A stretch of 64,000 nucleotides of DNA from assembly GCF_001529295.1 (NCBI RefSeq), contig NZ_LLWK01000037.1, forward strand, positions 558,001 to 622,000. The letters run 5' to 3'. Shown here piece by piece: positions 9,424-27,518 of the stretch. The position numbers and the translations under genes were made by a program. A model generated the notes under the pieces. It ran no database searches. It worked only from the letters and a program-made list of their open reading frames with translations, and had not been told where the DNA came from. Numbering within the stretch: the first letter of the stretch is position 1; each line of letters opens with the position of its first letter. The stretch comes from Flavobacterium sp. TAB 87 (GTDB lineage: Bacteria > Bacteroidota > Bacteroidia > Flavobacteriales > Flavobacteriaceae).

Positions 9424-10326
9424 CTATCTTAAAAATTTATCAATTATGTAAACCAGTTGCAATAATGAAATATAAGAAACACTAACTAACATCAATGTTC
9501 TCGCTGCCTTGGCAGTTCTAATTTTGTATAATTTAACCGCGTAGAACAACATCCAAACTCCTAATAAAAACACTAAAATTGCTGCAATTGGAGAAAGAAA
9601 CAATTGACCGGTATAACCGATCATTGGTATTAACGACGCGACGATCAACCAAACCGTGTATAAAATTATCTGTAAAGCCGTCCCATTATCCCGCTTACCT
9701 GTTGGTAGCATGAATATACCTGCTTTTTCATAGTCGTCATATAAAAACCATCCAATTGCCCAAAAATGAGGAAATTGCCAAAAAAACTGAATTAAAAATA
9801 ATGTTCCTGCTTCAATACCGAATTCACCGCTTGCGGCTACCCACCCTAACATAAATGGAATTGCACCTGGAAAAGCACCTACAAAAACGGATAAAGGCGT
9901 TACTGTTTTTAATGGTGTATAAACACTTGTGTATAAAAATATTGAAATCGCACCAAACATTGCTGTTTTGGGATTAATTGCATAAAGCAATCCCAAACCA
10001 ATAATAGTCAACAAAGAAGCAACAAAAAGCGCTAATCTTGGAGACATTCTTCCAGAAGGCACTGGCCTGTTCTTGGTTCTATCCATCAAACTATCAATAT
10101 CCTTCTCGATCACTTGGTTGAACGCATTAGAGGCACCTACCATGCAATAGCCTCCCACGCACAAGAAACCCAAAACCCACCATTGAAAAGGGTGATCCTT
10201 ATCAAAGCCTAATAAATATCCTGCAATGGATGAAAATAGTACACTTACAGCTAACCCTGCTTTGGTAATTTCTTTAAAATCATTAAAAATAGATTTAATT
10301 GAAAGTGTATTTGTAGTTGCGCTCAA
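9424..10326 (-). CDS. cyoE: Protoheme IX farnesyltransferase (heme O synthase)
   Basis: A 300-residue UbiA-family prenyltransferase that attaches farnesyl to heme B to give heme O, the precursor of heme A in aa3-type oxidases. The first Asp-rich motif is intact as NQVIEKDIDSLMDRTKNRP (about residues 70-88), and the second as YDDYEKAGIFMLP. About nine membrane helices are predicted, normal for CyoE/CtaB. It heads the oxidase subunit III/IV unit; a -7 box lies 36 bp upstream. No heme A synthase gene is in the window. Confidence 0.95.
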   Translation of the reverse strand: MSATTNTLSIKSIFNDFKEITKAGLAVSVLFSSIAGYLLGFDKDHPFQWWVLGFLCVGGYCMVGASNAFNQVIEKDIDSLMDRTKNRPVPSGRMSPRLALFVASLLTIIGLGLLYAINPKTAMFGAISIFLYTSVYTPLKTVTPLSVFVGAFPGAIPFMLGWVAASGEFGIEAGTLFLIQFFWQFPHFWAIGWFLYDDYEKAGIFMLPTGKRDNGTALQIILYTVWLIVASLIPMIGYTGQLFLSPIAAILVFLLGVWMLFYAVKLYKIRTAKAARTLMLVSVSYISLLQLVYIIDKFLR

Positions 10327-10361
10327 TGCTAATTTATTTTGTGGTTTTTTTAAAACTGCTG

Positions 10362-10369
10362 CAAATGTA
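10362..10369 (-). promoter_or_regulatory. -7 box for cyoE-cox3-cox3-cox4
   Basis: TACATTTG on the minus strand, matching TAnnTTTG, ending 36 bp before the cyoE start codon. No clear -33 element was found at the expected distance. Confidence 0.5.
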
Positions 10370-10476
10370 CAAATTTGATTATGAAAAGGAGAATCATACC
10401 TTTAGATTTAAAAGCAAATCCAACGATAATTAGTCACATTTTCAACTTTGCTTCGGTTTAAATTAGAAAAGTCTTA

Positions 10477-25492: not shown

Positions 25493-26413
25493 TTACTTTA
25501 AAAAATCAATATTTCGCTTTAAGCCACTAAACTTAGAGCGTTTTAAAGGAGAGTCTTTAAAAACCTGTCTAAAGGTTTCTTCGGTAAGTTCTACCCAATC
25601 ATTTTTAGTAAAAGAGAGTAGGTTAGGATTAGCATTAAAGAGAGGTTCGTTATGTGATTTCGAAAAGCGATTCCACGGACAGACGTCTTGGCAAACATCA
25701 CATCCAAAAATCCAATCGTCAAACTTTCCTTTCATTTCGTAAGGAATATTATCCTTCAATTCAATTGTAAAATACGAGATGCATTTACTCCCGTCAACAA
25801 CATACGGCGCAACAATTGCCTGAGTCGGACAAGCATCCAAACAAGCGGTACATGAACCGCAATGATCAGTAACTGCGAAGTCGTATTGAAGATCTAAATC
25901 GATTATCAACTCGGCAATAAAATAAAAAGAACCAGTTTTCTGTGTAATTAAATTACTATTCTTTCCTATCCAACCTAAACCGCTCTTAGCGGCCCATGCT
26001 CTATCTAAAACTGGTGCTGAGTCGACAAAGGCACGACCGGATACTTCACCAATTTCAGCTTGAATTAAAGCTAAAAGTTCATTCAATTTATCCTTTATGA
26101 CAAAGTGATAATCTTGACTGTAAGCATACTTACTAACTTTGAATGCGTCTTCATTTTGAAATTCCTGCGGGTAATAATTTAAAAGTAAAGAGACTACACT
26201 TTTTGAGCCTTCAACTAATAATGTAGGATCTAATCTTTTGTCAAAATTATTCTCCATGTAAGTCATCTGCCCATTTCGTTGGTGGTAGAGCCAGTTTTCT
26301 AATCGTGGTGCTTCCTCTTCTAAAAATCCTGCTTTCGAAATACCACAAGACAGGAATCCGAGCCGCTTTGCTTCAGATTTTATAAATGACGAATATTTTT
26401 CTTTGGTATCAAT
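25493..26413 (-). CDS. queG: Epoxyqueuosine reductase QueG, apparent ATT start
   Basis: A cobalamin- and 4Fe-4S-dependent enzyme that makes the last step of queuosine in tRNA. Two cluster motifs are intact: [16 protein letters not shown], and [11 protein letters not shown] near the C-terminus. The first in-frame ATG (26264-26266) would give 257 residues and lose the N-terminus. The frame stays open to 26459, and the added sequence ([36 protein letters not shown]) is clearly the QueG N-terminal domain. That extension has no ATG, GTG or TTG. The plausible start is ATT at 26411-26413 (or 26414-26416), giving about 306 residues, the usual family length. It lies 82 bp after ruvB. A degraded start codon is the alternative. 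Confidence 0.75.
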
Positions 26414-26495
26414 AATTGTAAAATAATTTCCGCAAAATTGAGAAGTGTAGTGCTTCTTTTAGCAATTAAGTATTCTTTTAAAATTCAATAAAAAA

Positions 26496-27518
26496 CTAAA
26501 ACAAACCGCCTTGAATGTTAGCTTTAACAATTCCTAAATGCCTGTACGCTTTGTCGGTTACCTCACGACCACGAGGAGTACGCATAATAAACCCTTCTTG
26601 TATTAAAAAAGGCTCGTAAACCTCTTCAATAGTTTCACTACTTTCTGAAACCGCAGTTGCTAGAGTTGAAAGTCCAACTGGACCGCCTTTAAACTTATTT
26701 ATAATAGTTGCCAAAATTTTATTATCCATTTCGTCTAAACCGTGCGCATCAACATTTAATGCTTTTAGAGCATATTGTGCAATCTCTAAGTCGATTGTTC
26801 CGTTTCCTTTAATCTGAGCAAAATCACGAACGCGACGCAATAAGGCATTCGCTATACGTGGCGTTCCACGACTGCGTCCTGCAATTTCAATCGCAGCTTC
26901 AACATGAATCGGCATTTTTAAAATAGATGCACTCCGCTCCACTATCGTCGATAAGAGTTCTTTAGTATAATATTGCAATCGAGAAGATATACCGAAGCGT
27001 GCACGCATTGGCGCAGTTAACAAACCCGAACGAGTAGTGGCGCCAATAAGTGTGAAAGGATTTAAATTGATTTGAACAGTTCGTGCGTTTGGTCCAGATT
27101 CAATCATTATATCAATTTTAAAGTCTTCCATAGCAGAATACAAGTACTCTTCTACAATAGGACTCAAACGATGAATTTCGTCAATAAAAAGCACATCACG
27201 CTCATCTAAATTAGTCAGCAGTCCCGCTAAATCGCCTGGTTTATCTAACACTGGGCCAGAAGTGATCTTTATACCCACCTCTAGTTCATTCGCTAATATA
27301 TTAGCAAGTGTAGTTTTTCCCAGACCGGGAGGCCCGTGAAACAAGGTATGATCAAGTGCTTCACCTCGCTGATTAGCAGCAGCAACAAACACTTTAAGGT
27401 TTTCTAAAACATGATCTTGACCCGCAAAATCATCAAAAGAAAGTGGTCTTAATTTCTTTTCAAGATCAAATTCTTCGGTATTATATTGGTTTGTTGTAGG
27501 ATCTAAGTTCTCGTTCAT
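26496..27518 (-). CDS. ruvB: Holliday junction branch migration ATPase RuvB
   Basis: A 340-residue AAA+ motor that drives branch migration with RuvA. Walker A is [12 protein letters not shown], Walker B is [12 protein letters not shown], sensor 1 is GATTRSG, and the arginine finger lies in the [10 protein letters not shown] region; the C-terminal winged helix ([20 protein letters not shown]) is intact. I chose the ATG at 27516-27518 (MNENLDP) because a promoter-like sequence lies directly upstream, and the next upstream ATG (27551) would sit before that promoter and add a hydrophobic stretch foreign to RuvB. Confidence 0.95.

Follow-up and report, generated by a model that had tools for sequence, protein, structure and literature searches.

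To our knowledge, few bacterial genes are known to begin at AUU, AUC or AUA (together referred to as AUH), and the locus studied here raises the question of whether queG of a Flavobacterium strain is one of them and, if so, at which codon its translation begins. ATT, ATC and ATA are among the possible starts of NCBI translation table 11, and gene finders that assume ATG, GTG, TTG or CTG (together NTG) shorten or miss genes that use them. In the window, i.e. the whole stretch of 64,000 nucleotides that was analysed, the queG frame leads from an upstream stop through two adjacent ATT codons into a conserved stretch and ends with the stop at 25493-25495 (Table 1). We number the codons from the lysine of KYSSF (K1), so that the ATT at 26411-26413 is codon -5 and the ATT at 26414-26416 is codon -6. 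A search from the upstream stop to the first ATG of the frame, which lies 49 codons past 26413, yielded no in-frame ATG, GTG or TTG. The original prediction had stated that this interval is free of CTG as well; this part of the statement has to be dropped, since a CTG is present at 26351-26353, and a start there would cost 20 residues.

Table 1 Features of the queG locus and the basis on which each was assigned (positions in the window).
Feature	Positions	Strand	Basis
queG CDS, 306 residues from the likeliest start ATT	25493..26413	-	Matches to TIGR00276 and to PDB 5d08 and 5d6s
Likeliest initiation codon ATT, codon -5 before KYSSF	26411..26413	-	Conservation of the Ile codon and adenine context
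Second candidate start ATT, codon -6, in the column of most relatives' ATG/TTG	26414..26416	-	Alignment of relatives
Upstream in-frame stop	26459..26461	-	Reading of the frame
Spacer from the ruvB stop to the queG start codons	26417..26495	-	Sequence; REP-like element not recognised here
ruvB, next gene upstream, same strand	26496..27518	-	ATG of MNENLD at 27518; listed ORF from TTG 27551
Internal in-frame CTG, Leu of GFLSCG, within the conserved region	26351..26353	-	Sequence and translation
First in-frame ATG, internal, codon 45 from K of KYSSF	26264..26266	-	TIGR00276 profile position 40 if the start is here

The identity of the gene product was assessed by profile and structure matches. 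The QueG protein of the window scored 330.5 bits against TIGR00276, exceeding the curated cut-off of 200, over profile positions 1-298 of 337, and both expected domains were found, PF08331 (QueG_DUF1730) with 74.9 bits and PF13484 (double 4Fe-4S) with 82.2 bits. The epoxyqueuosine reductases 5d08 and 5d6s of the PDB were matched as well. QueG is responsible for the final step of the queuosine synthesis pathway. The queG stretch of the window had a single match in the host genome, with 100% identity. Because tgt was found in this genome and a search for QueH gave no match, QueG is probably the host's sole enzyme for completing queuosine synthesis.

For comparison with relatives, 30 loci were taken from the 94 genomes with a match among 101 Flavobacterium genomes and combined with 80 named loci (52 of them from Flavobacterium, including the seven best), 60 further stretches and a second copy of the window locus, giving a total of 171 loci with 156 distinct queG sequences. 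Locus L048 lies on a contig titled as a Klebsiella pneumoniae MAG, yet its queG and ruvB are of the Flavobacterium type, so that this bin probably carries a wrong label or contamination. In the 14 codons that precede the conserved region, 70 of the 156 genes have an ATG, 43 a TTG and 5 a GTG, which leaves 38 genes with no such codon. Among these 38, four (L103, L139, L147 and L160) carry a CTG at codon -5 or -6. The remaining 34 genes, the window included, form what we refer to as the AUH group, and all of them have an isoleucine codon at -6, -5 or -4. Members of this group were found in F. frigoris DSM 15719, F. granuli DSM 19729, F. xanthum DSM 3661, F. degerlachei DSM 15718, F. omnivorum, F. 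petrolei, F. sandaracinum and other named isolates. When the search was extended up to the in-frame stop, no NTG was found in 29 of the 34 genes; an ATG, TTG or GTG lies 25-29 codons upstream in three of them (L027, L030 and L096), and a CTG stands at -7 or -13 in two (L031 and L063). The in-frame stop precedes K1 by just 6-8 codons in nine AUH-group genes, and in L080 the codons from the stop to the conserved region read ATT ATT ACA AAA ACT. In four loci (L029, L069, L070 and L092), queG seems to have had its first codons replaced by short CTTCCAACTT-type repeats, with the ATG inside or beside them.

In the alignment, the ATG or TTG of the relatives mostly falls into the column of 26414-26416, and an isoleucine codon stands at 26411-26413, as expected from the original prediction, according to which both ATT codons lie where the N-termini of the family begin. 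All 28 further genera examined, represented by their best-scoring loci only, use NTG for queG (17 ATG, 6 TTG and 5 GTG); a queG match was present in 112 of the 120 genomes at family level. On the queG tree, which is weakly supported with 21 of its 152 inner branches starred, the AUH state requires at least 13 changes with L160 taken as CTG (14 if it is counted as AUH), and labels shuffled 200 times never gave fewer than 25. Parsimony with equal costs and nine distant rows as outgroup resulted in 5 gains and 8 losses of the AUH state. As read from these gene sequences, the AUH state of queG is shared and recurrent within Flavobacterium. Unusually, the codon varies instead of being fixed, drifting between AUA, AUC and AUU, and relatives with an NTG start are available for comparison.

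Other genes served as controls. An ATG was present within 14 codons of ruvB in all 110 loci long enough to include its N-terminus (28 further loci stop short) and, when the span was widened to 30 codons, in 109 of 109. In the queG loci, maeB and the CBS-domain gene have an ATG within a span of 16 codons in 33 of 33 and 20 of 20 cases, respectively. The lack of ATG, GTG and TTG in 38 of 156 queG genes exceeds chance and compares with 0/110 for ruvB, 0/33 for maeB and 0/20 for the CBS-domain gene; coxA gives no control counts, as none of 82 loci reaches its N-terminus. The original prediction had pointed to infC as a parallel, and this parallel extends to the genus itself: in the best-scoring 30 of 89 Flavobacterium genomes with a match (L173-L202), infC has an ATA before AIRSN with no in-frame NTG upstream in 29 loci, and the thirtieth, L202, was unparsed and has the same ATAGCAATA in its bases. 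Since ATA is the start of infC in 29 of 30 loci, AUH initiation very probably already operates in Flavobacterium. The infC gene of the host itself (L112 1456-1458, on host contig C33) begins with ATA GCA ATA AGA.

These comparisons suggest that queG is intact and is translated without an NTG, at an AUH codon, most likely the AUU at 26411-26413 and possibly the adjacent AUU at 26414-26416; from the sequences, we assign this reading a probability of about 0.8. The proposal that queG starts at ATT is well supported by the comparison with relatives, as is the parallel drawn with infC.

The alternative that survives best attributes the translation of queG mainly to ribosomes arriving from ruvB, by termination-reinitiation or scanning, in which case a good start codon would be unneeded. 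We regard this as a real, albeit lesser, possibility, and it would supplement initiation at AUH and not exclude it. The distance between the two genes speaks in its favour, with the qualification that ruvB was recognised by a motif and that some cases may be missed. Where the ruvB stop lies at most 10 nt from queG (32 genes), queG starts with TTG in 23 cases, two of which overlap the ruvB stop as TTGA, and with ATG in 8, and one gene belongs to the AUH group. At a distance of 11-200 nt, there are 31 AUH, 22 ATG, 11 TTG and 2 GTG genes, i.e. this class contains 31 of the 34 AUH genes. With ruvB more than 200 nt away, we counted 10 ATG, 6 TTG, 4 CTG, 2 GTG and 1 AUH gene. These four are the CTG genes named above (L103, L139, L147 and L160). 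Where ruvB was not recognised in the upstream sequence examined, queG has an ATG in 30 of 35 cases. The Bacteroidota promoter consensus consists of TTG, 17-23 nt and TAnnTTTG. In the 90 nt upstream of the AUH starts it was detected, with at most 3 mismatches, in 11 of 34 genes against about 18 expected, and this lack of enrichment would fit cotranscription with ruvB. On the other side, the spacers of the AUH genes are mostly 30-150 nt, often with a hairpin element, and thus long for reinitiation, and the association of AUH start and ruvB spacer was not significant on independent pairs on starred branches (5 pairs, median p 0.5). Moreover, arrival from ruvB explains how ribosomes gain access to the AUH codon, but is not a substitute for this codon.

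The hairpin belongs to a REP-like element that occupies many ruvB-queG spacers (e.g. L004, L014, L023, L050 and L088) and has constant flanks of approximately GGAGCTATTTCCTGCTATCCGC ... GGATGCCGCTGCTATCAGGGCTA around a variable hairpin. By a strict motif, the element was recognised in 16 of 34 AUH genes versus 3 of 122 others. The host genome contains 10 exact 3' halves of it elsewhere, and none was found when they were sought in the window. We infer as likely a history in which queG would at first have followed ruvB immediately and used a weak TTG start. In a Flavobacterium lineage, the two genes would then have been separated, often by the REP-like hairpin element, and the first codon would afterwards have been free to drift provided that an isoleucine codon came next. 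Where queG has departed from ruvB, ATG is the rule.

The region in which translation of the AUH-group genes begins was delimited by the selection acting on their codons. As the compared rows are related, the pN/pS values and the base counts given here and below are not independent. For the 34 AUH-group genes, pN/pS over codons 1-15 was 0.113 when calculated from the 60 closest pairs and 0.128 when calculated from 500 of the 561 pairs, which is as low as for the rest of the gene (0.07-0.21). For the same two sets of pairs, the values were 0.71 and 0.93 over codons -12 to -7 and 0.34 and 0.47 over codons -6 to -1. Codons 1-15 were less constrained in the NTG-start genes (118 genes, less one that has a gap close to its N-terminus), where pN/pS was 0.39 and 0.28. 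Since codons 1-15 are constrained and the upstream codons are not, translation of AUH-group queG must begin somewhere from about -6 to K1. At the level of sequence, the AUH-group genes thus have no canonical start, and their N-terminal codons, including those ahead of the first internal NTG, are constrained as translated codons are. The constrained region is bordered by an AUH codon that is kept across species.

This constraint also bears on the alternative of an internal start, at the CTG at 26351 or the ATG at 26264, by which a shortened QueG would be produced and the homology upstream would be a relic. Codon 16 is indeed TTG in 18, ATG in 3 and CTG in 1 of the 34 AUH-group genes, and the shortened QueG of the window would still score 298.7 bits against the cut-off of 200. 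However, an NTG at codon 16 is unspecific, as 49 of 117 other queG genes have TTG and 4 have ATG at this position, and codon 16 is not ATG, TTG or GTG in 13 of the 34. The internal start at codon 16 fails because it is in the AUH genes themselves that purifying selection on codons 1-15 is strong (0.11-0.13), beyond that in the NTG-start genes, and we consider internal initiation at either codon very unlikely.

For initiation at AUH, two codons of the window come into question. Shine-Dalgarno pairing, which E. coli uses, is not used by Bacteroidota ribosomes. In the AUH group without L031, which was omitted for its CTG, codon -5 is an isoleucine codon in 31 of 33 genes (ATA 14, ATC 9, ATT 8; 0.94 of all 34), and codon -6 is mixed, with isoleucine in 13 of 33 (ATT 9, ATC 4) and the rest scattered. 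Among the 118 NTG-start genes, codon -6 is ATG in 36 and TTG in 37; codon -5 is an isoleucine codon also in 79 of these genes, and part of its conservation may reflect the residue rather than the start. Adenines at -3, -6, -12 and -13 are described as favouring initiation in Bacteroidia (PMC9976891), and initiation in F. johnsoniae as depending on adenines at -3, -6 and -12 together with low structure around the site (PMC6847099, PMC9976891). In the 34 AUH-group genes, the mean adenine fraction at -3/-6/-12 was 0.60 for a start at codon -5 and 0.39 for a start at codon -6, with an upstream background of 0.33 (SD 0.06 over 45 offsets); several offsets inside the lysine-rich coding part of queG score higher, up to 0.89. 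In the window, A is found at -3 and -6 and T at -12 relative to 26413. The predicted mean unpaired probability, calculated for the AUH group alone, was 0.73-0.83 in the first 30 nt versus 0.52-0.55 at -60 to -20. The adenines and the low structure of the F. johnsoniae rules are thus likewise present at the AUH-group site, with the difference that these rules also name -13, which is not A-rich in the AUH group (5 of 34). The ATT at 26411-26413 would be the likelier start of queG and the ATT at 26414-26416 the second candidate.

It is highly improbable that queG is instead joined by a frameshift to an NTG in another frame: nine of the 34 AUH genes do have an other-frame NTG that is open through codon -5, the one of the window lying 14 bases before K1 in frame +1, but 25 have none, and a common slippery site was not seen by eye in the listed spacers. 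Least credible of all is the suggestion, also part of the original prediction, of a sequencing error or a newly crippled gene with an ATG to ATT change in the window strain only, because, although ATG or TTG is frequent at the aligned codon in relatives, the same lack is found in 34 distinct genes from named isolates and MAGs with at least 13 changes on the tree, the queG frame and family match are intact and purifying selection persists, strongly so at the N-terminus.

If queG is translated from the AUH codon, initiator fMet-tRNA would mispair with this codon at the third position, and the adenines at -3/-6 together with little structure would help initiation in place of Shine-Dalgarno pairing. 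Initiation at AUH would give a low yield, and IF3 would hold the start down by analogy with infC and sigR. Initiation at exactly this codon, the low yield and the sensitivity to IF3 are what context and analogy point to, and it is plausible that the AUH start limits the amount of QueG. In its widest form, the proposal would be that, in one large Flavobacterium lineage, queG lacks canonical starts and drifts among AUA, AUC and AUU and that queuosine synthesis is under IF3 fidelity control; we put this forward tentatively and consider it rather unlikely as a whole. If true, tRNA modification would follow the state of the initiation machinery. Queuosine tRNAs read NAY codons (Tyr, His, Asn), and codon 2 of KYSSF (26393-26395 in the window) is NAY in 34 of 34 AUH genes and in 97% of 122 others, which is probably simple residue conservation. 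Sensing of the product via queuosine-read codons near the start was considered and rejected, as there was no excess of such codons in the AUH group.

Among known systems, pcnB of E. coli has an AUU start, encodes an RNA-modifying enzyme and is thought to be held at low expression in this way; queG resembles it in the AUU start, and the enzymes are unrelated. In E. coli, infC starts with ATT, in Streptomyces with ATC, and sigR of Streptomyces starts with GTC behind a strong Shine-Dalgarno sequence, with measured repression by IF3 and with GTC in 32 of 34 species (PMC5472188). The AUH group of queG is like infC in having an AUH start without an in-frame NTG upstream that is kept over many species. 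In contrast to Flavobacterium infC, which retains a single codon (ATA, 29 of 30 loci), queG varies among AUA, AUC and AUU, in some cases at the next codon inwards, and has relatives with TTG or ATG, and the autoregulation of IF3 finds no parallel in queG. With sigR, queG shares a lineage-wide non-NTG start of an ordinary gene missed by gene finders, and differs from it in that its codon drifts. In the literature searched, judged by titles and abstract openings, no paper dealing with a queG start other than NTG was found; the term 'infC' is absent from the main texts of PMC6847099 and PMC9976891, and 'AUU', 'AUA' and 'non-AUG' are absent from the main text of PMC6847099. With its AUH codon, queG appears to join the small class of non-NTG starts represented by infC, pcnB and sigR. 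The AUH state in dozens of relatives beside ATG and TTG users provides a natural series on start choice in Bacteroidota, which also bears on the question of whether a tRNA modification enzyme owes its level to IF3. Where a QueG model of these species starts from an internal ATG, it would miss the N-terminus.

Further non-NTG starts were sought in an all-against-all ORF survey of the loci, which gave 14 families and in which queG (35 of 182 flagged) and infC (21 of 21) stand out once false flags are removed. The flags on two families that we take, by eye, to be rplT (8 of 31 flagged) and a LacI-type regulator (1 of 20) were rejected upon inspection, as they arise from a spacer that is conserved or from a reading that is too long. 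Families 3, 9, 11 and 12 (flagged in 20/36, 7/18, 8/8 and 5/8 cases, respectively) were taken as shadow ORFs; their overlap with ORFs of the main families was 26/36, 18/18, 8/8 and 8/8. Family 2 (29 of 52 flagged) was, by inference, taken as maeB antisense, the overlap test giving 0/52 with maeB outside the main families. No flags were obtained for ruvB (0/119), family 4 (0/35), the CBS-domain gene (0/20), family 10 (0/9) and family 13 (0/5). In a codon-usage scan of the window for upstream extensions, which is a weak scan, 37 ORFs looked coding and queG was outside the 12 ORFs listed. In the ORF at 9424-10401, by eye presumably a heme O synthase-like gene, the first NTG lies just before the presumed N-terminus.
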